Shown here in pieces: positions 26,973-64,000 of a stretch of 64,000 nucleotides of DNA (position 1 is its first letter; every line of letters begins with the position of its first letter). Under the pieces are notes generated by a model. That model had not been told where the DNA came from. It made no database searches and was given only the letters and a program-made list of their open reading frames with translations. Origin of the DNA: Maylandia zebra (lineage: Eukaryota > Chordata > Actinopteri > Cichliformes > Cichlidae). Both the position numbers and the translations under genes were made by a program. Where the stretch lies: assembly GCF_041146795.1 (NCBI RefSeq), contig NC_135170.1:388826-452825 (forward strand), given 5' to 3'.

Positions 26973-27200
26973 GTCTGCTTCTTTAGCCGGGTGGTAGTAC
27001 GAGGACATCATCGCGGACTCGGTGCACACTGATCCAACGAACACCTCGTATGGCCGATTAATGTTGTTCACAGCAGTGCGTGGCCCATCGTTGCCCACAG
27101 CCTGCTTAGCATCGTGAGTGGAGCTTCGAGACTACAACCTGACGCAGCAGCTCTCCTCCAGCTGCGGCTTCAGTGCGCGAAGCAGCGATGTCATCTACGC
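26973..27200 (-). promoter_or_regulatory. lin7b 5' UTR and promoter region
   Basis: Sequence upstream of the lin7b ATG at 26972 on the minus strand. The start context is GCAGACATGGCGGCCATG, with an upstream in-frame ATG-ATG at 27027-27022 that would extend the protein if used. The stretch is relatively CpG-rich. The transcription start is not visible; extent is inferred. Confidence 0.45.
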
Positions 27201-27481
27201 AGGACTCATGTGCTCCACGCACTGACACAACAAAGGACATCCCTCACACACTTGCAGTATCTGCTGTTGTCTGATGGGCGTTTTTAATATTTATCACCCA
27301 GCTGAAAGGCTGATAGAGCACTGCTACATGTGCTCTGGATATCCTGTAACTGGCCTTGTTGGTCTGGGGTGACAGGTTTGTAAGAACTGATCGGAGACTA
27401 CGAAATAAAACATTTGGCACAGACTCATGGACAAAGGATGCAAAGTGAATGGCGTGAAACTTTCTGGCTTTAAGTCACATC

Positions 27482-27487
27482 TTTATT
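27482..27487 (-). terminator. snrnp70 distal polyadenylation signal candidate
   Basis: AATAAA on minus (TTTATT on plus) 416 bases past the stop. A second, stronger-placed signal is at 27677-27682. Confidence 0.45.
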
Positions 27488-27676
27488 AAAATGTCCTTGC
27501 AAATATTACCAACAGCAGGAGATTAATAAAAAGGAATAAACAGAAGAGCTCATAACTGCCACAACACTACATCTTCAACCTGACAGGATGCTCATCGGGA
27601 CACATTTACCAAACTCACGTGGCTGCTAGATCTGGAAATTAAAACGGCTACACCATCGACCCATTTCAAAACAAAG

Positions 27677-27682
27677 TTTATT
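27677..27682 (-). terminator. snrnp70 proximal polyadenylation signal
   Basis: AATAAA on the minus strand, 221 bases beyond the stop codon at 27903. In transcript order it follows a C20A8 homopolymer pair (27722-27695). Confidence 0.6.
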
Positions 27683-27694
27683 TGTGTCTGTTTG

Positions 27695-27722
27695 TTTTTT
27701 TTGGGGGGGGGGGGGGGGGGGG
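27695..27722. repeat. T8-G20 homopolymer tract in the snrnp70 3' UTR
   Basis: Plus strand shows 8 T followed by 20 G. In the transcript it is C20 then A8. The plus strand could form a G-quadruplex. Length is unreliable in sequencing. Confidence 0.85.
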
Positions 27723-27902
27723 ACTACAACCAAAACCATCGCTACAGTAAAATGAGAGTGTGATGTAGTGGCACACATTAGTGGGGTCATGTTGAGCGTA
27801 CCATGACACCAGGTTACAGAAACAGACTGACAGGAAGGCTCTGACATCACAAAGGTCAACGAACACAGACGGTGTACGAGACGCTCCGACGGGCGCTTCG
27901 TT

Positions 27903-30900
27903 TCAGTACTCGTCTCCTGCAGCCTCCATCTTGTAGCCATTTTCACTGGAAACGTAGCCATCAGCTGACGGCGCAGACTGCTGGCCCGCCATCATCCCAT
28001 CCTGGCTGTATTCCTCCATCTGTGGCGGCACTCCTCCATCATCCTCGTTTACCATGTCGTCTTGAGGGCCCATGTCATCTCGCAGGGAGCTGTGCCGTTC
28101 CTCTCGCCGATCGCCCCTGTCTCTCTCGCCACGCTCCCGTTTGTGCTCCCTGTCTCTGTCCCGATCTCCCCTGCGTCTGTCCCTGTCCCTGTGGCTACGC
28201 CTTCTGTCCCTGTCCCTGTCTCTACGCTCCTCTAAGCCCTCACTCGCTTCTCCCTCGTGCTCCTCCAGCATGCGCTCTCCGACCTCGGGGGCAGCTTCTC
28301 CTTGGCCGATCTCCTCCCCTCCTTCTGGCCCCTTCGCCCTGTCCCTGTCTCTTTTACGATCTCTGCTCCTGCTCCTTCTCTTCCGGTCTCGACTCCTCTC
28401 CCTGCTCCTGCTGTCTCCTCCCGATGCCGCCCCACGCTCCCTTTCGCGATCTCGACGCCGGTTACTACCACTGTTGTCCTCTGCTGCTACGATCTGTCGG
28501 TCCCTTTCTCGCTCCTGGGAACGGGTGTGGCGACGGCGTTCGCGAGATCGGGACCGGCGACGCTCTCTGTCCTTGTCCCTGTCCCGTTCACGGCTGCGTT
28601 CCCTCCGGTCTCCACGGTCACGGTCACTGTGGGCAGCACAGTTGCAATAAGTATTTACAGCAGTTTGTATTTTTACGTCAAATTACAAATGTAGAACGAA
28701 GACCCACCCCCCAAGAGGACGGTCGTCATAGCGTGACGCGTCATCTCGACCAGAGTGCTTGATGTTGACATCAGCGCCGCCTCGCCTGGTGCCACCCAGT
28801 CCACCACCTAGACAGAGAAACCACAAACATTTCTAACATGTTCATGAGAAGTCCGCTTTCTTCAGGCGAATGTTTACAGCGCCACCTTGTAAAAACAAAG
28901 GCGCTGCACATTACAGTCCCACAGTGGAGGGACGCCTAACGGCGAACAACTTAGAAAGCAGTGCTCACCTAGCCTGCGAGGACGCCACCCTTTGACAGTA
29001 CGTCCTCTTTCCACGTCCACCAGGACCCTTCTGCCATCAATCTTCTTCCCGTCAGCATGCTTATAGGCGGCTGGAGAAGAGTAACGGGAAGAGGGAAGAT
29101 AAAAGGTGAGGAAAGGGAGCGAGGGAATATGGCTAAGGAAACAAACAGTGCATTATTATACTGACCAGGAGCAGGCGAAGCCGACATGGCTGCTCTCTGG
29201 GCAAAAGTCGAAGGATAATGGGAGTAGACTTCCTTCCACCCGAAGAGTGATTGTTACATTACACCGTTTCTTTTACTTACTCGGGGTCCTACACCAGCTA
29301 CACCAAAGAGCTGCTGTTTGATAGACTAAGGTGCTGTTTCATAAAGCTGTGGCATGTTTGGATTCACTGCTGCTAAACCTTTGTGCCACCCGCTGACACG
29401 TCTACAATAAGACTTTGTTTTCTAGAAGATTTAAATGCATCGAGCTGTTGGTAAAAAGCTGCAGCAGCTTCTGTTATTACACAAAGCTGCTTTCATTTAC
29501 AGGTTTACTGAGAGCAACATACAGTAGGAACATCAGCACCTGGCAAACTGTCCACTCGTGTACCACACAATGTTATGACCCATGTTGACTGATGGAAGAA
29601 CGTGCCACGGTCCAGACTAAGCTACTTGATGTGTGGAGCCAAGGCTAAAACGTTACCATCCATGAAAGGGGCCTTACCAAAACCCTCCAGACACAACATC
29701 ATTTCACTGATAAGAGTTCAGAAAGGCTCAGGCCGAGCTTTAAGGCCTCACTAAAGTACCTCCACACCACGACAGTGTCACAGCACATCTACTTACCATA
29801 CCCCGAACCCTTTCCCTCTTCAAGAAGGATTTTACCACCAGTCCTACTGACATGGACCACGTGGGGAAAAGGAAACGTGGAAAAATATAAAACAAAAACC
29901 CAAAACAAACAAAACTGGGCTTCTTTGCAGGACTGGCTTTATCACAACTCCAACCTACTGAGAAAGAAATGTTCCTAACACTGGCATGCCATGGATGTGT
30001 AGGCTGAGATGCATTCAGTGCGCAGATGTTATAAACTGGAATTGTAAAAACTAGCACCTGGAAACTTTGGCCCCGGGCGGTCATTTCCTGTTGCATTTAC
30101 TGTCTGCTGGATACGCAGTGACAATCATTAAAGCTAAGTGAGAGCGAGACTGAGAACCACAACGGTTTGTTTGTGGCTGCGCAAAGGGGCTGATCACATG
30201 ACCCCGACAAGCCTGGTTGAGGGAAGAAAACCCAAACTGGGGGGCTCATACACGACACTCGGAAACTTCAAGTGAATCATGTTAAAGATAGTCAAAGATG
30301 TTTTGCAGCCCCTGCACTAACTTATCCATTTTGTTGGGGACCCATCCTGGAACACTTATTCTTTGAGCTGACAGCACAGGAACCTCTTGATTAGCGTGTG
30401 GAGCTTCACTCTTCACTGTGATGAACAACAAGATTATCAGTAAATAAATGATGAGATTAAAGCTTTTTGGTGACAGTCTGCAGTTTGTAAGGCTGCCAAG
30501 TTAAGCATTGCAGCAATTTAGTGCTGTGCAATGAGAAAGACTGCAAACTCCACGTCACAACAAACTCCAGCTAATGCGAATGGCAGCCATTTAATCATGC
30601 GTGTGGCTCTCTCAGGCTCAGCTACCACTGCCTTCATTAACCTGAGGTGACATTTAGGACAGGCGGTCGGGTGCGTTCAATGGTAAAAGTCTGAATAAAA
30701 GCTCTTTAGGGTCTGCAAGAAGACGCTTTACCCATTGAACCCTATCCCTATGTAGGAGATGGAGGGTGGAAAAAAATCTTACCCATCATACAAACCCATT
30801 ATACCAACCATATACTGAGCTGTGGTAGTAGGGTGTAGATGTATCATAACCATCATCATCTGCCAGCCAGCTCTGGCCAATAGCCATCACAGATTGGCGG

Positions 30901-31470
30901 CTGCAGTGGCAATGAGAACAACATACAGTTAATACACTGTTTACCCCACATTCCCCATCAGTTCATCCCCTGCTCCAACTACACAACTGTGATTCAGCAA
31001 CTCTGGTCTTGAAGAGCTGATTGCACCAACATCCCAGAATGGCGTCATTGTGTTCGATGACACCATTCGACTAAAGAGACAGTATTTACTGTGGCATCGC
31101 CACCAGCTTAACGTATCTCGCTAGTGTGGAAAGGCTGAATTAATCTCACCATGACCAGGGTTGAAGACCACCGATAAAAGTTTGTAAAACGTGGGCTTTG
31201 ACACATGTCTGGTAAAAAACCCATTCAATGCTTGGTGACCAGTCTGACTATGTGCTTACCATTATAGTCCAACCGGGAGAGCTGCTCTTCCACAAAGCTA
31301 CAAGGCCTAACAGTTAAAAAGACAATGTGCCTTTGACAGGCAAAGATGTTCAGGCTCACAAATGAAACAGTTGACCCCGCCCCCACACACAAGATGCAAA
31401 AAAGAAAACAAGTCTTTATTGCTGAGAACACCGTTCTTAGACCAGACTGATGACACGCAACACGCACGTT

Positions 31471-31525
<55 letters not shown>

Positions 31526-31577
31526 GTTCTCACACACACACACGCACACACACACACACGCACGTTCTCACACACAC

Positions 31578-31617
<40 letters not shown>

Positions 31618-34600
31618 CAGAGCTCCAGCACTAACCAGCAGCTGGGCTCTCACTCAGCAGCAGTCACTACAGAGAAAGCTGCTGCTGTTACAGAGCTGCA
31701 GAGGAGAAACGCCCTGCACACAGTATTTGGTCTTTAAGTAACATAACTATGTTTGGGTTCATATTGGTACTCACAGTGCATGTCTCTCTCATGCTCATAT
31801 TCAATGAATGCAAAGCCCCGCGGCTTCCCCGTCCTCTTGTTGTAGACTATGTAAATCTGGAACAACAGTAGAAGAAAAGAATATATCACAATATAAATCA
31901 TTACCGCACATGCTTCAAATTATACGGTGATATGGATTTTAGGCCATATCGTGCAGGCCTGGGCAACAGTAACTCACATCACAAGTTGTTACAACCAAAG
32001 TAAGCAGAAGAGCATCCTGAATGTGCATGCACTGACAGCAACACGCCCACCTAGGACCAGGACACGCCCCTCTGCTGATGGCTGCCTCCAGCAGGATAAC
32101 ACACCGTGTGATAAAGTCGATCAGTTTCTTGAACATGACAATCAGTTCATTGTGGATAAATGAGCTCTGGGTCACAGATGTGAATCCATCAGAGTGCTAC
32201 TGAAACATGGAGGAGCTGGAGTTCAGCATCATGGATGTGCATGAAGGCGATACGGACTACAGTTTGAGGAATCCATGAGTTTTTCTCTTCAGGTGAACAT
32301 GGAGTCCAACCTGTTACTATCAGGGTGGACCTTAAGTGGCTGGTGAGTTTACGCCTGAGCGACCTGCCCAGCACGTGCACATGCGTTAGCTTGTCTTCAT
32401 AATAGAAGTACTGAACACATCGTCGATCTTTGATGTTCTAAAGGTGCTACTGACATCAAAGTCAGTAACAAGGCATGCTACACACACGCAACACATCCAA
32501 CCACAGCTGTGCATAAAGGATGTGTAATAACGAGGAATGGGAGAAAGCTGACAGCTGCTGTATGCACAAACCAGTCCGGTCCTCAGGTGTGGTTCTGGAC
32601 CAACAAACACGGACTGGTATTACGGCATCCAAACAGCCCTTTCCCACTACTACCAGCTTGGCTCAACTGGACTTTGATCATTTTCCATGACAATCGAGTA
32701 CCAGCTAATGTGCGTGGGGTTGTTATAGCAACACTCGTGGTTTCACGACACAGGAGCACGTCGAGGGAACAGCATGCCCCTGCTCCGTGTAGCTCGCTGT
32801 CAGACTCGGGGACCACGGTGTGTCGTTGTCAAGACAACAGAGGTTTGGGTTTGAATGAGCTGCTCTCCTGATTCAACGACGATGAGTTCAGTTTGGCTCT
32901 CCTGTGACCAGTTTATTGTGAAATGATCACTTCTCCACTACGGCCCAGCACTGCTGCAGAGTTTAGAGATGTTTCTGTAACCAGTGCCACCAGTTTGGAA
33001 AGGTCATGAGAGAGCTCACTGGTTCTCCTCATAATGAGACGTTCCTTGTGTGACACCTCGGTAACGACACAGCTTTGTGCAGGTTGGGATTGAACGAGCT
33101 GCCGTGACTCGGCCTTCAACACTTCATTTATGCACAGCCATGATTTCAACAGATGAGCTGTTAGTGACATCTGGAGAAAAGCTCATGTCAGAGCACCTTT
33201 AGAAAGACACTGGACTTCAACTGGACACGTGTCCGGCACACGAGCCCGACAGTCAATGCAATTATTACAGCATGTGGAAAGTACTCCAATAATCAAGAGT
33301 AACATTTGTCTTCCTGTAGAAAGTGACCTGCAACCGTTTTAAAGGCTAACCTTGATATCTTTGTTGCATGACACTGATACTGTGAGACTGCAGAACAGGC
33401 TTAGCTGGATCTGGACGGCTGGAAGCGCGGCTCAAACATCCTGTTCGATTCACCATTGCTGCACAGCTACATTTGATAGTTAAGGGGCAACACACAAGTG
33501 TGCCGATGCCAGGTGTGTACTGTACGCGACAATTGAAAATAGTAGTAACTGAATAAATAAGACATTAAGCACAACATTACTCAGACGGGACCGTGTAAAC
33601 GTACCCGTTTGATGGGGCCGTACACTTCAAATTCTCGGCGAAGCTTGGACTCAGTGGTGTCATAATTCTGTAGAAAGAAGATATTTAGAGTTCACACAGA
33701 CAGGTAACACCAAACCCAACAAACCCAAGCCCAACACACTTGGGCAGGCAGCTATTTGAATATACTAACCACTCGTGCCACAAACAGAGTCTTGAAGGCA
33801 TCGCCCTGTGCGTTGGGGTCATTATGAGGGTCCCCTGATAGCATGTGAACAGAAAAGCAACATTAGGCCAAGTCACCACATCATGCAGCGTTTGCAGAGC
33901 GTGTGCCGTGTCAGGAACTTACAAAGCTTCAGCTCTGTCTCTACTACTGCTTGCCTCCTTTCAATCTTCTCTCGTCTCTACAAAAACAAAAGATTCACAG
34001 AAATGGTTAGTGCTCAGCTTTCTTAACGATCGTTGCTTTGTTCTCAGAAAACCGGACACATACAGACTTCACAGAGCTTCATCTGTTCTAGTCTCTTTCA
34101 GCATTGGATTAAATTCATTCCCACCTCTAAATTCTTCACAAAACACCCCATAAAGTTACAAGATGCCCGTTTCCACTGATCACCTGTCAGATGGTATGTC
34201 TACAGCCTGACTGGAGCCCCAGCTGTGGTAAATAAAGCGAACTGGACATTATTTGGAAAGAAACACTTTCTCTATAAAAAGGTCCCACAGCTGACAGTCC
34301 AAGTCAGAGAACACCCAAGCTGTGAAGTCCAAGGAGTTGTCCTCAGAGGCTGGATTGTAGGTGAAGGAGGCTGCAGAAAAACGTGTGCAGTATTTAAGGT
34401 CCCAAAGAGCACCGCGGCCTCCATCGTCTACACATGGACGAAGTCTGGAACCACCAGCACTTCCAGAGCCGGCTGCCTGGCTGATCTGTGCAGCTGTAGT
34501 TGAGGGTCTTGATCAGGGAGAACCTGACTCTGAAAGAGCTCCAGTGTGGAAAGAAGAAGAAGAACAACCAGATCCCACGGTGCTCAAACCCTGTGCTGTC

Positions 34601-36182
34601 CAGCAGTGTGGAGAGAAACTGGCCTCAAAACGGTTACAAATGATCCACAAGCATGAAGGAACAACACGAATGTGTGCAGGGATTTGTGTGTAACCTGACG
34701 ACTCACAGGCGCATGCTTCAATCCATACAAATGCAGAGCATTTATCATTCCCCCTTAATAATAAAAGCTTCATATAGAAACGTGCATTCTTTTTGTCTGA
34801 TGATCTGAAACATCTCAGTGTTACACCGGGACACAGCTTACATCTGTGGATCTGTGCAAAGCTAGCAGCGTGAACCTCGTGCATGCAACGTGACGTGTGC
34901 GTATGGGGCGACTCGTGCACACATATTCAAAGTTTTGTACGTGAGCAGGAGGGACGTTAGGCGTAGTTTCAGACATCGGCATGAACAGAAAGCTTATTCA
35001 GAGAAAACGATCCAGCTACTGAAGCTAAACTTCTTCTGTGGTGTGTAAATGATTGGTTTCAGGTTCGGGTAAAAGCTTTACGTGTGCTCACACTGCTTTG
35101 CATTTGTGTGTGTGGACTGAAGCGTGTGCTTGTGAGTCCTCAAACCCCACACACATTTGTAACCTTTTGAGCCAACTTCCTCAGCTTCTCTTCAGCTTGA
35201 TTCTGCTGCAGGAAAAGGTGCCGGTGCTGTGGAGGACGCCACGGTTACTCAAAGGTCCTGGAGAGGCTGCTTCTTGATCCTTCCTCGCTCTTCAGTTTGC
35301 TCACCAGCCTCTTGTCAGGCGGATGCTGCTGCTACTGCTACATTTTTCGTTTAAAAAAAACAAACAAACAAAAAACTATCCAACCACATCTGCTTCTAAG
35401 TGAGAAACTGCTCAGGCCTCGGTGCGTACTCTGGGAGCACTCTCTCTGATTTTGTGGTTAACAAGACTGGAGCAGCACAGGGTCAGTCAGTCACCTCAGA
35501 TCTGAAATATGCCGCCTGCAGACGTTCTCTGGCAGCAGCTGGCTGGAAGCGTCATTGGTCAGAATCGGGAGGCGTCTGAGTCGATGAGGGACAGGAAGTG
35601 ACTGAACAAACTGCTCTCCAGCACAGCTCCTCCCTCACACTGACTCCTCCTGTTCTCTATAAAGCTGTATAATGTACAGATCATTCAGTGACAGCTAAAT
35701 GCTCCGGTCCTCTCTCTGTGTGGCTGTTTTCTTGGACTTACAGTGTACTGAATATTTCTGAATGTAATCTGAACTACTTTCTTACACGGTGCCAGTCTTA
35801 CTGTGTCTGCAAAGCTGTCAGTCAAACGTTCTTCGCGGTGTCATTATGGGCTGTTGTGTGCAGGAGAACAGGTTGAATACTCACCTTTCTCTCCAGCCGC
35901 TCTTCACGGGTCTCTGCTCTTGTCGGAGGCGGGGCATCTCTCGGGTCCTGGTCAGAGAAAGGAGATATTTAACAGGACTAATGCGGGACGGAAGAAGAAG
36001 GGCTAACCAAAGCGCACAGAAGACTTTACATTCACCTCGAAATGTCTGATGAACGGGGCGATCCCACTGTAGGGCTGATTGTGGTGCTTTTCGTGGGGTA
36101 ACTTCACCAGCTGAGGTAGGAAAGGTATTGGGTCCCGTGGAGCAAAGAGGGCCAGGAGGTTGGGTGGTAGGAACTGCGTCAT
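27903..36182 (-). CDS. snrnp70: U1 small nuclear ribonucleoprotein 70 kDa (U1-70K)
   Basis: Binds stem-loop I of U1 snRNA and helps the U1 snRNP recognise 5' splice sites in the nucleus. Nine coding exons: 36036-36182, 35885-35947, 33923-33977, 33770-33834, 33605-33667, 31775-31856, 28969-29070, 28708-28807, 27903-28626; all phases join, giving 466 residues (human about 437). The start [18 protein letters not shown] is the conserved N-terminus. The RRM spans roughly residues 103-180 with RNP2 LFVARVNY and RNP1 [10 protein letters not shown]. After [15 protein letters not shown] comes an RD/RE/RS-rich tail in the last exon, ending in [15 protein letters not shown], like the ENGYLMEAAPE end of human U1-70K. 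ATG sits at 36180-36182 after a non-coding first exon. Intron 6 (29071-31774) holds a likely poison exon. Confidence 0.97.
30783..30900 (-). other. snrnp70: Candidate snrnp70 poison (NMD) cassette exon
   Basis: In the intron after the exon ending at 31775, a 3' splice site (CATTGCCACTGCAG) and a 5' splice site (ATGG|GTAAGATT) bound 118 nt. Joined to the preceding exon (...CAC T), it reads Ser-Ala-Asn-Leu-stop (TGA 30889-30887), and 118 is not a multiple of three, so inclusion destroys the U1-70K frame before the RRM is complete. In another frame an ATG at 30887 opens 33 codons (MAIGQSW...DDDGYD...YYHSS) closing with TGA just three bases before the donor. Mammalian SNRNP70 is known to splice in an exon with a premature stop, so a conserved autoregulatory exon is the best reading. 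Not tested against transcripts. Confidence 0.65.
31463..31618. repeat. Compound (CA)n minisatellite in snrnp70 intron 6
   Basis: Long CA runs broken by three copies of GCACGTTCTCACAC (starting near 31464, 31522 and 31560). In the snrnp70 transcript it becomes a long UG repeat about 160 nt beyond the 5' splice site at 31775. Confidence 0.95.
31927..32400 (+). mobile_element. Tc1/mariner transposase relic
   Basis: The plus frame 31927-32163 includes [14 protein letters not shown]...FLEHDNQF, matching the QQDNAPCH...EHDNEF block of Tc1-like transposases, then breaks up with stops. It lies in snrnp70 intron 5, opposite to the gene. Confidence 0.5.
32560..32840. repeat. MITE-like interspersed repeat
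   Basis: GGCATCCAAACAGCCCTTTCCC, ACTACCAGCTTGGCTCAACT and GACAATCGAGTACCAGC resemble degraded copies of a short fish DNA repeat, possibly related to 6228-6390. Ends unresolved. Confidence 0.35.
34225..34503 (+). mobile_element. Tc1-like DNA-binding domain relic
   Basis: The plus frame reads [14 protein letters not shown]...[18 protein letters not shown], the paired helix-turn-helix of Tc1 transposases (family pattern: RG-I-L...VPKSTV-SII-W...G). The following bases to about 34700 contain Cys/His fragments without a clear fold. In snrnp70 intron 2. Confidence 0.5.
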
Positions 36183-36515
36183 TTTTCACCTATTGCAACA
36201 ACAGGGGGATCACTTCATTGACGCTTATATGCTGGTCAATCCGGGCATTAAAGCAAGCACGCGACAGCCCCAAGAGCGGAAGTTCTCGGTACATGCTAAC
36301 TGTTGTCCTGATTACGACGACACTCCTACAACCATAAGGCTAGCACGCGTTTCATTTTCACCCAACATCTTCCTTAACTTACAAACAGCACGGCAACGAT
36401 ATCTGAAATGTACGCGCTAACAGCTTTTACTTTAAGTCCTATCGACTTGTTTAGCGCTTAATTGAGCCTTTCGAATTAGCCACCAAGCTCACTATGCTAA
36501 CATGCGGAGTCTTAC

Positions 36516-36760
36516 CTTCTCTCCTCCAGCGTTTAGCAAATTTCAGATCATGTAGCAGAAGAAGAAGCGCGAGATCAGGTAGACCAGGTCCTTTGTGACA
36601 AACTTACTTCGACTGAAGGAGATAATATACTTGGATCTATTAGTAACAAGAATCTGATCTTCAGGGTACCCACAGCGTGCAGCGGCGACAAATAGCTAAC
36701 TGTGTCGAGTTCGCAAATAAAATGGCGGGATGCCGCAAAATAACGACAATTGTCGTAAAA
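36516..36760 (-). promoter_or_regulatory. snrnp70: snrnp70 non-coding first exon and promoter
   Basis: A donor (GAGAGAAG|GTAAGAC) at 36516/36515 on the minus strand can join the acceptor (TTGCAATAG) just above 36189, placing the ATG 8 bases into exon 2. Upstream sequence is TATA-less with CG-containing stretches. The exact transcription start is unknown. Confidence 0.55.
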
Positions 36761-39060
36761 CGAATCGTTCAGGAAATGCGTTGAGTCGACATTATGATAT
36801 TGTTCGGAGTGTTTATGAAGGAAAACAAAGTCAAATAGGGTGTTAATGTTTTATTAAACTTGTGTAAGCAATATATACATAAATTTCGTTTTTTAAGACC
36901 AAACCAACCCTACACTGGAAAAACGATTTAAACTTGTTGGTTAAATCTTTGACTTTAGTTAAAAAAAACTGCATTTTTGTTTACTTTTTGGAAGACTTTG
37001 ATTTAGTGAGTTAATACTCTGTTAACCTTTATGATTCCGTCTTTATATCTTTATTTTCTTTGTACAAAGTTTGCTAATTGGTACGAAGTTTATATTTTCT
37101 GAATGAATAATATATGGTGCATAACTTGATTTTGCTAATAAAAAAAGTTTTGAGTCGACATTAATTTATGAAAAGAAAGACACACCCTCTGACTCTTCAC
37201 AGCCTTTTGTAGCGTATGAGACAAAGCGATTGTTGTTCCAGAAAAAGTCCAAAATAACTGGATCGTTTTGGTTCCTTTGAAGATATAACCAACAAAGTCA
37301 TGGATAGAGCCTGAAACGAAGCTACGACGGAATATTAGAGCTACTTTAAAAATCAAGTCAAAATATGCAGATTACAGTTGTTTCAAAACAAACCGCCAAT
37401 AATTCATTTGTATTGTGCATTAATAAAATAATAACTTCACTCCCCGTCGGATTGTACAGCCCGATCCGGCGGGGAGGTGTGGGAAGCGGTCGGGCGCGCC
37501 ACTTCCGGCTCTGCTCTCTCCTCTCTGTCACCTTTTCTATCCCTTTGAAGAACTGAGGCTCCATAAATGCTAAAGAGGTATTATTTGTCAGTTGCAGTGA
37601 ATAGAAAATAAACTGTAGGAAACTAAGCAGAAGAAAGAAGAAGAAACATAACATTTTAACATAAACCAGTGACACTCTGGGGCCTGATCAACCCTGGCTC
37701 GGCCTCCTTGGATGAGGGTGTCTAGTAGTGATGGGATTTCCGGCTCTTTTTAGAGAATCGGCTCTTTCTTTTCGTTCTGTTGGGGACACCTAGCCTGGCA
37801 CGGCACGTGCCTTCCAGATGAGCTGGAGCCGGTCAAACAGATGTGTGGTAAACGCTTCCGCCAAACCAGGAAGTAAACACTGGATATTCTGTTTGTGTGG
37901 CCACATTTAAACAGTTCGTCATTCTTGTTGCTCTTGACCAATAAAATATTAAAGTTTCCAGCCAACTACTGCCCCCTTGTGGCCAAGCGCCAAGCCTACA
38001 GGCAGCTTGACTTCATTAGGTCGGGCGCGTTTAGCTCCCATTTCATTCACGTTACATTTGTAACTTTCAGGGTTTCACATTCTTGTGTCTTTCAAATAAA
38101 CTAGTAAACTAAATGAAATGGTTGTATTTCTTTTTAGCTTACGCTGGTAAGAAATGTCCAATTACACACATGAAGTTCTAGAAAATGCCACTCTTATTGG
38201 TTAAGATGATTTTAGAATTCATTTTATTCCATAACAAAGAAATGTGTTTTGGACAAATATTACACACTAATATTTGACTATTGTTGTAACATCACATCCT
38301 GTTAGTGTAGTCTGCCTGTGTCTGTTCTCTGCACAGGAATTCAACTTGGAAAATGACGTGTTAGTGGATTGTGTGTGCATTTATGTAACGAAGGTCACGT
38401 GGGACCATCGTGTAGTGTTTATTAAGAACAGCTGGGGCCAAAATAGATAAGCGATCGACACAGCTGGCCAGAGTTTGTAGTTATATACTGTCTGTTATAT
38501 TATTATAGTTTAGTCTACAGGCTGTGTCCAAGTTCAGGGGCTGCAGCCTTTGAAGGACCCTGCCCAGTCTGAGGGTGGTTAAACTGGACGGTCTAGCCTG
38601 CGACGTGAGGCTCCAGCAGCAGCTACAGCTGTGGTAGACGGTCAAGAAAGTCCTGAACAGTCTCTCTATGAACAGAAACACTGACAGAGAGCAGACAAAA
38701 TAAATAATACAATGTTTACCAGTGTTAAGCAACATTTATAGTGTGTTGGTCATTTTATAAAGAGACTGAGTATAACTGTCAGTCTCAGTAACATGCACAG
38801 AATACACAATAAAAGAAGTGAGAAATCAGCAGTGACCAACAGCCTACAAGCTGCCTGTAAAGACACAGGGACGCAGTACTTCTGTTTAGTATTGTTTAAC
38901 TCCTTTGGGTGTGCAGCTGGGTATCACGTCTCCTCTCAGTCTGGATGTTGATATAAAGGAGAGGAGAAACATTTAATTCAATACTATTAAAAAAGGTCCT
39001 GTAATTAGTCCCACCATTGAGACACTTCTAACAAATCCAACCAACAAAAACTAAGAACTA
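36761..39060. other. Intergenic region between scaf1 3' end and snrnp70 5' end
   Basis: No gene supported. About 37440-37530 is CG-rich (CCCGATCCGGCGGGG, CGGGCGCGCC, CACTTCCGG with an ETS-type core) and could be a promoter-like remnant. About 37724-37990 resembles a hAT MITE (TAGTAGTGATGGGA, CCGGCTCTTTTTAGAGAATCGGCTC). The rest is AT-rich and unassigned. Confidence 0.4.
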
Positions 39061-39344: not shown

Positions 39345-42300
39345 TTAGGCAGAGGGATGCAGGGCTCCTGGCTCCCTGTCATCCCTTTCTTCCTCGTCCA
39401 TTTTGCGCCCGTGTTTACGGAAGTATTTGTAGCGCTGAACATACAGCTTCACAAGGTTGCTGACTTTGACTGGGTTGATTTCTCCAGTGCGGCTGTGGCA
39501 GATCTAAGACAAAGACACAGTGTGATTAAACAGTAACAACTCAGAACACAAGTACAGAGCTTCATTTATGGACGCACAGATCAGACATTTTGACTAGATG
39601 CTGGTCCAATCCCATCATAAAAGCTCCAATGAAAGAGCAGGACGATCCACTCAGGTGCACTGAGTGGCAGCTGATAGCTAGCATAGCAAAGAGAAAGCTA
39701 ACAGTAGAGGGTCAGCAGTTACAAAGTACTCCACGCCCGTGACACCAACAGCGTTCCTTTGTGTGTCTGCAGAGTGTGACTGTGTTCATGTGAGGCTGCA
39801 TGAATGAAATGCACACATGGTGAGTCTTTGTTCTTACGTTCTCTGGACGAGCTGCCATCGTGCTTTTACTGCTCGTGATTAAAAAACCTGATGCAACCTT
39901 ATTTCACCTCACCTTTCTCTGGCCACTGAGGACATGTGTGCAGGTGTGTGCTTATAGGAAAATCAGAAGAATAGACTCGTGCCAGTGTGGATGAATACAA
40001 GCTGATCTGAGACTAATGCAAATAAACTATGCTAATAATGTCAATATTCATATATTAGTCTTAATTATTCTTAATTCATATTATTTTACTGATAAATACC
40101 AATTCACTAAATGTACATTATTGCATTTATTTGTTAATGTAGTACACAAAGGTACCAGGCTCTCAGTGGAAACATCCATAGTTTTATTGTAGAAATGCTG
40201 CATGTTGTAGCCACACTGTCAACTTGACGCTGCTGTAGCGACAAAGTGCAAAGTCATCATGAGCCATGTGATATATAAGACAGTGCTACGTGTGTGGTTG
40301 GATTTGTGTGTGAAGGCTCACCTTATGCACTGCTTTCCTGAGGATGTCTTTGTATTCTTCCTTGTTGATGTCTTTGCGTTGGTAGTAAGGCTTGATCGCC
40401 AGCTTGACCTCCTCTACTGCCCGCTCCTGTGTATGCAGCTTCTTTAGGTACTGTGCAATTCAGGTAAGAATCATGTTAAATAAAGGAACCCACACAAACA
40501 ACACAGCAAATACAAAAAGGCCACAGCTAAACCCAGGGGGTGAAGCAGGACCACTGCTAAGCCCCGTCCCACCAGCACAGGCTTGTTCAGCCTGGAGGGC
40601 ACACTGCTCTCATCAGGAAGTTCAAGTTTACCTTATCCGGGTCTTTGCTCTCATTGTCCCATCCAGTGTCACTAGAACTCCCAGACACACCTGTCATCCC
40701 CACAGGTACGATGGAGGGTGGAGTCTGAGCGCATCCACCAGCTAATGACGGGTGCAGATGTGAAGGTGGGGTTTTAGTGCAGCTAACCAATGGGAGGGAG
40801 CCGTGCAGAATGAACTGGGCTGGGCTCAGTCCAGGAGGTGGGGGGAGAGAGGGAGGGGGAGGAATTTGTAAGGATGAAGAGGAAGAGGACGCCGAGGGAG
40901 TGAGAACATGCTGCTGGGACTGGTTCTGATTGGCCTGTGAGAGCATCTGCACGTGAGAAAGGAGACAAACGAGTCGACGGTCATTCAAACAACAACAGGA
41001 TCATCATTTCAAAAAGGCTGCACACAGCAAGGTCCCACTCTAGCACAGTGTGTGTGAGTGGCCTCCTAAGAACGTGCGCTAAAATGTTCCTCCCCACTGC
41101 AGATGAATGAAGCTCCACTGAGTCACCTGGCTGGTTGCTTGAATGAACTCTTGTGCTTTGGCTCTGCTGGCAATATTGGCCTCTTCCATTTTGAAGAGCA
41201 GAGCAGTCACTGTGAGAAACAACAGACTGTTTAGGGAAACAGACTGACAAACACACACAATCATGTTTTATAACAGGGCAGCATGATCTTTAAAACTAGA
41301 GATGCATTCATATGATTGTCTAAAAGATTAAAACAGTGCTGCACAGCCCGTGCTGCCCTCGGACACAAACTGTACTGTCAGTCTACACTTTACCAGAAGC
41401 CTGGAAAATACTCCGACAGCGACCAGCAACATGTGGAAAATTTGAACCTGTCCTAAGTTTACCCCCCGTCCCTTCTGATAGGTTGTCCCATGAAGGAAAG
41501 AAGTGCTGCTGCTGTCAAAGCTCTTCTGGTCGCCTCTTTGCTGCCACTGTGTCACACATGCTCCCTCATGCACACATCTACTTTGATTAATCTGTAAGTT
41601 ACTGTCAAATGTCCAACAGCATTAAAAAAGTGTTCTGATGATGTTTAAGTGCAAAGGTGAGTGAAATGCTGGTGCAGTAACTCTTCATTTTCTCCACAAC
41701 ACTAAGAACTACTTCAGTAATCTCATACACTTAGGTCGATGTGAAGAAATGCTAGTAACAGCAAAACCCTGTCAGTGACAACCTGGTTCAAATAGGAGAG
41801 ACCATGTGACCCAACTCTGCACCCACTAAATGCCCAGCTGTGCACACTACTAACAGTTTAGTCTCTGCGTTTGAATAATGTGCCTTCTCTGCATAGGGAG
41901 AGTCAACTTACATGCTAAGACACCTCCGGTTGTGCAGTCCACCCCAGTCTGGAGACTCCAAGGAAGAGTGGGTGCAGGAGCTGGAGGGGGAGGAGGCAGC
42001 GGCTTACCAGCAGATGAAGAGGACACAGATGAGGATGGGTCAGAAGAAGACAGAGGTAGAGCCAGGGAAGGGAGACCACAGACGGTTGAGGACAAGGAAG
42101 AAGGCGAGCCCAGAGATTTTGACAGATCATCCTGACTTGGCAGCTTGGCCGTGGGCAGGGCGCTGCTGAGACCAGCTCCTTGTGAGGGGGCCAGGTTGGA
42201 AGGACTGGATGCTGGTTGTGTAGGACTCGGCTGTTTTGGACAGTCCTCAGTTAAGAAAGAAGGATCTGGAGTCTTACAGCTGCTGTCTACAGTTTGAGAG

Positions 42301-45300
42301 TCTGGTGAAGACTCCCTGGTGTCCCGCAACGATGGTGCAACAGGTGGCGGAGGGGTCTGAGGAGGTGACGAGGATGGTGGGAGCACACTAGTGGAGGAGG
42401 ATGTGGACGAGGAGGAAGAGCAGGGTGCGGGGCCAGCTTGGCCAATATGTGGACTGACCGACTTGCTCGCATCTCCAACGCCTGACTGAACATCTAAGGA
42501 GACACCCCCACCCCAGGCTTCGGACATGACTTTAGTTTGGCTGCTGCCTCCGGCGGCCAACCCCGCTGCTTCGGCCTTTTCTCTCGTCTTCTTGGCCAGG
42601 CGGCGGCGCCGCTTTGTTACCAGAGAGGATGAAGGGGAGGAAGCTGAGGAGGAAGTGGATGTAATGGAGCTGGGTTTTGCTTTCTTGGATTTCAGTCCTG
42701 CAGGACCGGTCAGCGATGATGGCGGTGCGGATAGACCGCTGCGTTTTCCCATACTGACCAGGTCTTTACTCCGCCCACCCAGTGACAGTGGTTCTGAACA
42801 AGGTTTCAGAAAAGGTGACCTGCTTTCATTGTCCCTGCAGAACACAACTGCAATTGAGCCACCCACCACAGACCCCCCAGTACTGCCTGCTGCACCACCT
42901 GGGCCGAGAAGGTCCATGTTCAGTTTTCCAGAGCCAACCGAAGACCCCGTGGTACTGCTTACGCCTTCGCGCACCAGAACCGACACTTTAGACTGAAGCT
43001 TACCTTTCTGACTAGCACCACCTTCTTTCTTGGACTTCCCAGAGCGACTCGTGTCTTTTCTGCTCTCCTTGTCCCGATCTTTGTCTTTTTTGATCTTCCT
43101 GGTTCGCTTTGCTGATGGGAAGCCAGGGGAAACAGAGGCAGATCCGGAAGAGACCATCAGTGAAGAGAGGCATTTGCTTTTGGTTGTACTGGCAGGAGCC
43201 GAAGCTTCAGAGCGGGCAATTTTCTTTAATGTGCGAGATTTCTTTTTGGGTTCATGTCCAGTCTTGGGCGTAGCTGCAGCTTTAGGGCTGGGGACGGGAG
43301 CCTCTGGAGGCAGAGCAGCAGGGGGCGTGTCCTCCAAAGATGGGTAGTCTGAGTCTAAAGCTTCACCATCCAAAGACAACACATCAATCTCCAGTTTGTC
43401 TGAATAGCGGTCTGACTCATAGCTGTGATACCTGGGAGGCGAGAGCGACTGCGATCGGCTCTGACAACTGCCTTGTTTCCCTGCCTCTCCAGCTGAATGC
43501 CATTTTCTCTTCTTTTTACAGGGCTTGTCGGAGTCCTTTGTGGCTCTTCCAGGAGAGGATGGGGTAAGTCTCGGAGACCCGGGAACGGTGGTGGTCGTAG
43601 TGGTGGTTGTGACCGTAATGGTTCGCTTAATAGCGAAGAGGTCAGACCCACTGAGGTCTTGGATGGACGGAGGTATGACGGGACGACCGTCTCGTCTCCT
43701 ATCCCTGTCACGTTCCCTTTCTCTGTTGCCTTCTCTCTTTTCTCTGCTTCTTTTGGACCGCTCTGAAATGCCTCGCTCTCTGCTCCTTGAATGATGTTTT
43801 CCCTTCCTTTCCTTCTCCCTCTTTCTGGAGCTAAAATCTTCATCCCGTCCATCTCGCCTGTGGCTACTGATGCGATTGTGTTCCCTCCCTCTGTCGGTGT
43901 CTCTGTCCCGATCTCCAGTCCGGCTCCGGTGTTTATCCCTTTCCCTCTCTTTGTGCCTTTCTTCAGACAGGCTGGAAAGCGACCATCTGGTGTGGCCATC
44001 TCTTCTTGAAGAATTGCAGGACCGTGAAGTCTCTGGGCTGCTGTGCCATCTTTTCTTCCTCTTCCGACTGCTGCTCCTGCTGCTCCTTCTGCCTTTATCC
44101 TCTTTGCCCATCTTTTGCGCCTTTTTCTTGTTCGACTCCTGAGCCCACTCTTTGCCTTTCCTTCTCTTTTTTCTTCTAATCTCCTTTTCTCCGTCTTTTC
44201 TATCTTTGCTTTTTTGCTGGCTGTGGCCCTTGGAGCTTTTGGAGGACTTGCAGCACTTGCCACCCTGATCTTCAGGAGGCGTTAAAGGGGACGAGGATGT
44301 AGAGGTTGGAGGATGAGAAGGAGGCGGTGGTGGTGGTGGTGGCGGCGGCTGGGGAGAGCAGGGTGAAGAAGCAGGAAAGGAGAGATATCGTTCCTTCCTT
44401 CTGCTGACCAGCTTCCTTCTCAGATCCTCTACTCCTACCACAGGCTCATCCTTGAGCTCGCTGTCTACTTCCCAGCTGCCCTCTGTGCAAACGGACACAA
44501 AGCCATCCCCATCTAGCACTCGGAAGATTCGCTCTGGCTTTGACCCAAAGAAGGAGATGCTGGGAGAACTCAGGGGGAGGGTTTCCTCTACAGGTCTCTT
44601 ACTGCTCCCATCTCTTTCAATGGCTCCAACTATCTCGCCCTCCTCTATCTCAGAGTGATCTGAATCAGCTTTCATGGTGCTACAGTCCACCCTCCTCCTC
44701 AGAGGGAGCTGAGTGCTCAGACAGGCGCTTGGAAGGTCAGTGAAGGTGTCTGTGGAATCTGGAGGTTCCTCCACCTTCTCCTTTTCTTCTCTTATAGTGT
44801 TTCTCTTCAGTACCCTTGCTTTGCCACTCTCATCATCAACATCTGACGCTGGGGAACCCGTGGGGTCAAAAGGATCGTATTTCTCCCCTTCCCCCACCTC
44901 CTTCATCTCAGTTCCTTCTTTTGCTCCATTATTTGGATTGAAAGGATTGTACATCACCCTTTTCCTCTCCTGTTTTTCACAGTCAGCACTTTGTTGCATT
45001 AAAGTGTGAGGCAAACAGTCTGAGGAAGCGGTACTGCATGTAGGTTTGGAGAGAGACTGCGTAGCTATAGAGGCAGAGCTGGAGGAAACCCTGGCTCTCT
45101 CTGTTCCATTGAATTGGCTTTTTACATGGCTGGGATAAACTGATGTGTTGGCACATATAGAGGAGGATGTAGACAATGGAGAAGATGGACCGGTTGAAGG
45201 AGATGATGCAGAAAACGAAGGTGAGTAGGAAGGAGGGCTCTTTGAGGTCTCTTCAACTCCACCTGGGGAAGAGAAGGCCCTAGGCCTCCTTCTGAAGCCT

Positions 45301-45320
45301 GATGCCAAAGTCAAGTCCAT
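39345..45320 (-). CDS. scaf1: SR-related CTD-associated factor 1
   Basis: A nuclear SR-like protein that binds the phosphorylated CTD of RNA polymerase II. Coding exons: 41912-45320, 41127-41209, 40632-40946, 40322-40450, 39345-39503; phases agree and give about 1364 residues (human about 1312). Family landmarks in order: [32 protein letters not shown], a long KR/RS/RD-rich stretch, [68 protein letters not shown]. The small exons encode [40 protein letters not shown] and [10 protein letters not shown], the conserved C-terminal module. Low-complexity runs include eight Thr after the TITV and a run of about ten Pro. I chose the Met at 45318-45320, inside an exon opened by the CCCACCAG acceptor at 45332; the human N-terminal extension was not found upstream, so the start is uncertain. 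Confidence 0.93.
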
Positions 45321-46368
45321 GAGCCAGAAATACTGGTGGGTCAGAAAGTGAGGGAAGTAATACTGAGACACCTAGGGCGTGGCAGGTCACACCAGAAAAC
45401 AGGGCTCAGGAACCAACCTTGCAGGAAGAAAAGAACATGTGTCACTTTACGTTACAATATAATCCACGTGGAAAGGCTCCCTGGAGAGCCTACGATCCTG
45501 ACACATGAATATCATGGAGGATCCTCAGACTGTTTCTACAGTTGTGTTGTCAGAGTGAGGGCATGTCTTCAGTACAGAGAAACTAAGAAAAGACTGACTG
45601 AACAAATTTGAATGATATTATTGTTACAAAGAGCTAAATATGCATCTGCAGTCGGGACTCTGTTTGGAGTCCAGTCATATGAAACAGAAGACCCGAGCCA
45701 GTCTGAGGGGTCCGCCGAGCCCCACTGCGCTCTCACCAGGGTGAGCTGAGAGACGGCTGAAGGCAGCCGGAGGAGGAGTGGACCCCACACCGGATCAACA
45801 GACACATTTTTCAGTCCACGCTCACTGAACACAATCATTAAAAACTGCGCAGCACATGACTGCGTCTCTGTTGTTTACACGGTGGATTACACGTTACCGT
45901 CGTTCTCCTTCTGTTGGGATGCTTACGTGATTTCTGAGTTGTAAAAGAAGAGAACAATATATTTAGCTTCCATATCAGGGACTCACTTCTCAGTGCTTGT
46001 CACAGATAGCATTATCATTAGCTTTCCGTGGCTGGACAGCGCGTTGGTTGCTTTACAAAACATCTGTCCGCCTTGCGTTTTGACCATTAGCTTCATTATG
46101 TGTAATGCGGATTTGTCAGCGGTCGCACACTCGATTGATTATCAGACGCTAAAAATGTCTGGCGGCAGATTTTCAGTTACCCATGCAGCTAATTAGCTTA
46201 GCGCAGCTAGCAAGGAGAGCAGTATGTTGATGGGTTCCCTTCATGCCGGTCGCCTTCTGTCTCAGGCCAAAGCCACCGCTTCACATCTACTGGCTGTTAC
46301 TTTGTCAGACATTCAGTCAAACCACGAAATTAGACATATGCTGCTTTTTGTGGTGTTTAAATACGTAC

Positions 46369-48357: not shown

Positions 48358-64000
<15,643 letters not shown>

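Follow-up and report, generated by a model that had tools for sequence, protein, structure and literature searches.

A probable orthologue of the regulatory U1-70K exon 7a in the snrnp70 gene of Maylandia zebra

For human, mouse, and zebrafish, Rosel-Hillgartner et al. reported in 2013 an exon that regulates U1-70K from within one of the introns of its own gene (PMC3798272). Human U1-70K intron 7, with intron reads from +643, contains an alternative 3' splice site. The exon 7a starting there has a premature stop, and a short way past the alternative 3' splice site lie three cryptic 5' splice sites, A, B, and C. In human cells, intact, U1C-containing U1 small nuclear ribonucleoprotein (snRNP) on the A/B/C cluster switches on the 3' splice site upstream of it, and nonsense-mediated mRNA decay (NMD) eliminates the product. 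This has been termed U1C/U1-70K cross-regulation by the authors, who left a more direct role of U1-70K possible (PMC3798272). Here, a stretch of 64,000 nucleotides from the cichlid Maylandia zebra (assembly GCF_041146795.1, contig NC_135170.1, positions 388,826 to 452,825; referred to as the window) was analyzed, in which a preliminary description had pointed out a cassette exon within snrnp70, the gene for U1-70K. Homology makes it very probable that this cassette is the orthologue of exon 7a, and thereby a real and functional exon limiting U1-70K. The exon as such has been known since the 2013 study; its presence in this genome and a correction of its likely donor use are new.

In HeLa cells, the spliced 7-7a-8 product is visible only with cycloheximide, and with 107 versus 4 reads the use of exon 7a is not abolished. 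In zebrafish embryos mutant for U1C its use disappears completely, in mouse C2C12 cells it declines strongly upon U1C knockdown, and the authors concluded that without an NMD block the remainder of intron 7 is largely unspliced (PMC3798272). The endogenous human gene uses donor A more than donor B, and C is not significantly used; minigenes differ in that mutation of A or B causes more inclusion via C, for which the authors blame the shortened intron (PMC3798272). SNRNP70 splicing is also touched upon in parts of other reports. One excerpt lists SNRNP70 as a gene whose splicing is regulated by ZNF207, with a predicted effect via NMD (PMC12191140), a SNRNP70 poison exon is present in a table of PMC8501971, and the poison exon RNA increases under NMD block in passages of a study on mouse smooth muscle; the passages of PMC10350819 and PMC6093180 at hand contain nothing on exon 7a.

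The host gene in the window is identified as snrnp70 because its nine joined coding exons give a 466-residue protein without internal stop that matches human U1-70K across residues 1-462 (E 1.9e-152), and because U1snRNP70_N and RRM_1 are both found above the Pfam cut-offs in the first 226 residues. The cassette-bearing intron (31774-29071, 2704 nucleotides) is the counterpart of human intron 7 and is flanked by an upstream exon ending in ...DMHS and a downstream exon starting with AYKHADGK. The cassette is found at position 875 of this intron, its human counterpart at +643. The features of the gene are as follows:

27903..36182, minus strand: snrnp70 coding region, nine exons, 466 codons (joined translation, human U1-70K match, Pfam).
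31775..31856, minus strand: upstream exon, ending in ...ERDMH and 1 nucleotide of S, counterpart of human exon 7 (translation; numbering from PMC3798272).
28969..29070, minus strand: downstream exon, AYKHADGKK..., counterpart of human exon 8 (joined translation).

The cassette occupies 30900-30783 on the minus strand (118 nucleotides), between the acceptor GCCACTGCAG|CCGCC at 30901/30900 and the donor GATGG|GTAAGA at 30783/30782 with which the preliminary description had drawn it; the coordinates, the length, and both splice sites given there are exact to the base. The same holds for the in-frame stop that had been placed shortly past the junction: when the upstream exon, which ends at 31775, is spliced to the cassette, the joined reading continues ...MHSANL and then reaches TGA at 30889-30887. 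Read in the frame of exon 7, this premature stop follows codon 162, within the RRM (Pfam match 105-174), and is the same with donor A, B, or C.

30901..30930, minus strand: cassette acceptor region, the alternative 3' splice site (sequence, crude score).
30783..30900, minus strand: exon 7a to donor C, 118 nucleotides; to donor A, 30900-30805, 96 nucleotides; to donor B, 30900-30796, 105 nucleotides (donor preference from PMC3798272).
30887..30889, minus strand: premature stop TGA (joined translation, Pfam).

Acceptors were scored with a crude frequency matrix, by which the cassette acceptor reaches 4.98 and is joint first with two others among the intron's 176 internal AGs; the acceptor of exon 8, which is not counted among these, reaches 8.55. 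Both exon 7a and exon 8 start with CCGCC, and a derivation of exon 7a from exon 8 by duplication was considered and rejected: the best local alignment between them scores 12, which was matched by 24 of 500 shuffles, and the shared start lies outside that alignment.

The human sequence used for comparison consists of the reverse complements of two overlapping antisense oligonucleotides printed in the Methods of PMC3798272, together 40 nucleotides. Its local alignment with the window has 40 columns with 37 identities, 2 mismatches, and one 1-base gap; the last human base is mismatched and falls outside the alignment, so that 37 of the 40 human bases are identical. The match score is 33, compared with at most 12 on the plus strand and 14 on the minus strand in the rest of the window and with 17 as the best among 300 shuffled introns. 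Conservation above the neighbouring sequence, proposed earlier as a check across species, is thus found for the exon end and donor, and the extreme nucleotide conservation that had been offered as one explanation of a long second frame in the exon is supported for the 40 comparable nucleotides. The donor cluster of exon 7a is kept almost letter for letter between the window and human. Two DNA patterns used to find relatives gave 0 stretches in viral_contigs and genome_contigs, an expected outcome, since these collections hold viral and prokaryote contigs.

The human stretch contains five 9-mers with a GT, among which AGG|GTTTGT alone lies fully within both oligonucleotide targets and is for this reason assigned to site B. 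The target of the AB oligonucleotide alone holds ATG|GTTGGT and TTG|GTATAA, the latter being most likely site A. The other target alone holds TTT|GTATCA and TGG|GTAAGA, and TGG|GTAAGA is taken as site C because the highest score in the paper is given to C. The corresponding sites in the window are:

30803..30804, minus strand: GT of site A, TTG|GTATAA, the same sequence as in human (oligonucleotide coverage).
30794..30795, minus strand: GT of site B, TGG|GTTTGT, human AGG|GTTTGT (oligonucleotide coverage).
30781..30782, minus strand: GT of site C, TGG|GTAAGA (U1 pairing, oligonucleotide coverage).

Calculated U1 pairing energies are -4.2 for A, -7.6 for B, and -9.2 for C in the window, and -4.2, -7.3, and -9.2 in human; the ranks among the 267 GTs scanned are 53 for A, 6 for B, and 2 for C. 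A merely fortuitous cassette, consisting of splice-like sequences without function, would fit the fact that such sites are common in introns and that two other AGs equal the cassette acceptor in the crude score. Against this stand the near-identity with the human regulatory stretch and the experimental work published on this exon for three vertebrate species, including a fish (PMC3798272), which make a fortuitous cassette very improbable.

Exons of 96 nucleotides (donor A) and 105 nucleotides (donor B) are expected here because in the endogenous human gene A is the preferred donor, B comes second, and C is hardly used; the 118-nucleotide form would be minor. Donor C does exist as the end of the 118-nucleotide exon originally proposed, and with it the frame shift described at the same time occurs (118 mod 3 = 1), but the shift is not general because the exons to A and B are multiples of three. 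A 72-nucleotide alternative exon of U1-70K reportedly figures in the literature of the 1980s and would agree with human donor B (72 nucleotides by Methods arithmetic). The distance from the stop to the 7a-8 junction amounts to 82, 91, and 104 nucleotides with donors A, B, and C, respectively, and two further junctions follow downstream. As a rule, NMD acts on stops located more than about 50-55 nucleotides upstream of an exon junction, and it is therefore expected for all three forms. The anatomy of the exon, its near-identity to the human regulatory stretch, and this geometry are features of the window itself.

In the mechanism proposed for this gene, abundant intact U1 snRNPs would bind the clustered sites A, B, and C at the exon end and would thereby switch on the 3' splice site ahead of them at 30901/30900. 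Translation would stop within the RRM, at the TGA that follows codon 162, and the mRNA would be destroyed via NMD or would remain in part unspliced. A shortage of U1C or U1-70K would give deficient U1 snRNPs unable to switch on this splice site, exon 7 would be spliced directly to exon 8, and U1-70K would recover. We infer regulation of this gene by the switch from the experiments in human, mouse, and zebrafish. The earlier proposal of a poison exon by which snrnp70 sets its own level is confirmed with regard to the poison exon, which is established (PMC3798272), but has to be modified with regard to the trigger, which in human cells is the intact U1C-containing U1 snRNP in a cross-regulation of U1C and U1-70K.

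The same switch could also act chiefly through intron-containing RNA, in which exon 7 is spliced to the acceptor of 7a while the remainder of intron 7 is kept, and which would be held in the nucleus or decay, with the cassette form as a minor side product. In passages of the smooth muscle study the poison exon RNA is partly nuclear, which is consistent with such an outcome, but the 7-7a-8 product becomes visible after cycloheximide (PMC3798272). This course of events is considered possible though rather doubtful; it is a variant of the favored explanation, and the confidence assigned to one overlaps with that assigned to the other.

Several observations weigh against the identification as a functional exon 7a. 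The human comparison spans 40 nucleotides only, comprising the end of exon 7a and the donor, with the first part of the exon outside. By the arithmetic of the Methods in PMC3798272, the human exon measures 85 nucleotides to C compared with 118 here, and the lengths given in that paper for one and the same RNA are inconsistent (184 nucleotides in the Methods versus 139 in the Results). According to passages of the smooth muscle study, the exon rises in mouse smooth muscle at low U1-70K, for which a feedback loop is no explanation in the view of its authors. Finally, clustering of U1-complementary sites by pairing energy alone was not significant in shuffles of the intron minus its GT repeat, being matched in 19 of 300 shuffles at -6.9 and in 47 of 300 at -6.5.

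The exon harbors a second open reading frame, which is present as originally claimed: it has 33 codons, starts at the premature stop, and ends three bases before the donor. Its ATG (30887-30885) has one base in common with the poison TGA (TGATG), and its own TGA lies at 30788-30786, three bases upstream of the exon end.

30786..30887, minus strand: 33-codon ATG frame including its stop, probably incidental (sequence).

Dinucleotide shuffling of the exon produced closed ATG frames no shorter than 33 codons in 132 of 5000 cases and stop-free runs of the observed 37 codons or longer in 1838 of 5000, and 88 of 9126 slices of 118 nucleotides along the minus strand contain such a frame. Six frames of this length exist on the sense strand of the intron, this one included, and 177 on the minus strand of the window, coding exons included. 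The frame is mildly unusual and most likely incidental.

A bifunctional exon, on which ribosomes would terminate at the TGA and begin anew at the ATG overlapping it to make a peptide of 30-33 residues under selection, would account for a frame that nearly fills the exon, for a length reached in 1 to 3 percent of the controls, and for the overlap of stop and start, and one of the three substitutions between human and the window, GTG to GTA, is silent in this frame. However, the minus strand of the window contains 99 copies of TGATG, and the tail of the frame varies with the donor (30, 33, and 33 codons for A, B, and C). The human 1-base gap falls at codon 30 of 33, with the first 24 codons outside the comparison, and changes both tail and stop: assuming the same upstream frame, the human frame would end in VYGWYKGLYHG before its stop, whereas the window frame ends in VYGWYNGFV. 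RNA decaying via NMD is moreover a poor template for translation. The peptide had no match in Pfam up to E 0.1 and a single match in the PDB, an antibody heavy chain at E 0.99. By the arithmetic of the published Methods, the human exon upstream of A would be 64 instead of 96 nucleotides long, that is, 32 nucleotides shorter and not by a multiple of three, to which the contradictory lengths in the paper lend little weight.

Because the frame is near chance and the human gap falls inside it, a conserved peptide from this exon is unlikely, and for the small peptide suggested in the preliminary description the frame is weak evidence. A bifunctional exon of the kind outlined above is scarcely credible. 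Equally remote is a lineage-specific peptide of 30-33 residues, acidic and tyrosine-rich, made by restart at the TGATG, so that the exon would lower U1-70K and yield the peptide when U1 snRNP is abundant. A limited search of the literature on poison exons and microproteins, covering titles and the openings of abstracts, found SNRNP70 in none of those listed, and absence of the peptide from print is not claimed.

Further elements are found in intron 7 and beyond. The strongest of the 267 GTs by U1 pairing is ATG|GTAAGT at 29796, intron position 1979. The human minigene retains intron positions 1,928-2,227, and a further downstream site D is mentioned (PMC3798272); that the GT at 29796 is its counterpart is a guess.

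29795..29796, minus strand: GT with the best U1 complementarity in the intron, ATG|GTAAGT, perhaps equivalent to human site D (rank 1 of 267).

The stretch ahead of this GT is purine-rich with a possible acceptor and is a candidate for site D or a second cassette. A second poison exon upstream of the GT, for example 29846-29797 (50 nucleotides), was not retained, being a weak candidate with an acceptor score of 1.0 compared with 5.0 for exon 7a. Upstream of exon 7a in intron 7, AATAAA followed by a U-/GU-rich stretch (31420-31361, minus strand) forms a candidate internal poly(A) site; in passages of the smooth muscle study, a non-productive Snrnp70 event is annotated as internal poly(A) addition, and its authors favor probable intron retention. 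The intron also contains a long GT-rich microsatellite (31615-31470, minus strand) and, as the longest ATG frame on its sense strand, a frame of 118 codons (30096-29740, minus strand), which far exceeds the 33-codon frame of the cassette. Rfam at the gathering threshold gave 0 matches in 27000-37000. Outside the gene, an open frame of 1173 codons rich in S, R, and K (41850-45371, minus strand) is perhaps an exon of a gene related to serine/arginine-rich (SR) proteins, as judged by eye. Exon frames labeled by eye as ABC-transporter-like are located at 49841-50317, 58593-59102, and 60865-61341 on the minus strand and at 56266-56874 on the plus strand, and a reverse-transcriptase-like frame (YADD) lies between two of them; both labels are presumptive and rest on motifs.

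From the raw sequence, a U1-70K exon 7a donor cluster nearly identical to the human one could be recognized. The exon borders are corrected to the likely 96 and 105 nucleotides instead of 118, most of the reason for seeking a peptide is removed, and no large new question is opened.

In poison exons of the SR type the sensor is an SR protein at enhancers, whereas here it would be U1 snRNP at decoy 5' splice sites. With the ultraconserved poison exons in genes for SR proteins and other RNA-binding proteins (PMC4379411), the cassette shares conserved, NMD-coupled unproductive splicing in a splicing-factor gene. The feedback of U11-48K and U11/U12-65K through the U11 snRNP-binding splicing enhancer (USSE) is alike in that, according to PMC3798272 and passages of PMC5473595, an snRNP binds intronic 5' splice sites in the gene of its own protein, activates an upstream 3' splice site, and gives rise to an unproductive product. 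These systems differ by belonging to the minor spliceosome, with U11 and tandem sites of the minor type in other genes, and the outcome for 65K includes a long 3' untranslated region and nuclear retention (PMC3798272; passages of PMC5473595). Human exon 7a differs from the exon in the window by one base fewer between sites A and B and probably by a shorter length (85 versus 118 nucleotides to C, contradicted within the paper); the gene, the intron, the arrangement in which an alternative 3' splice site is followed by the stop and then by three 5' splice sites, and 37 of the 40 bases compared are alike.
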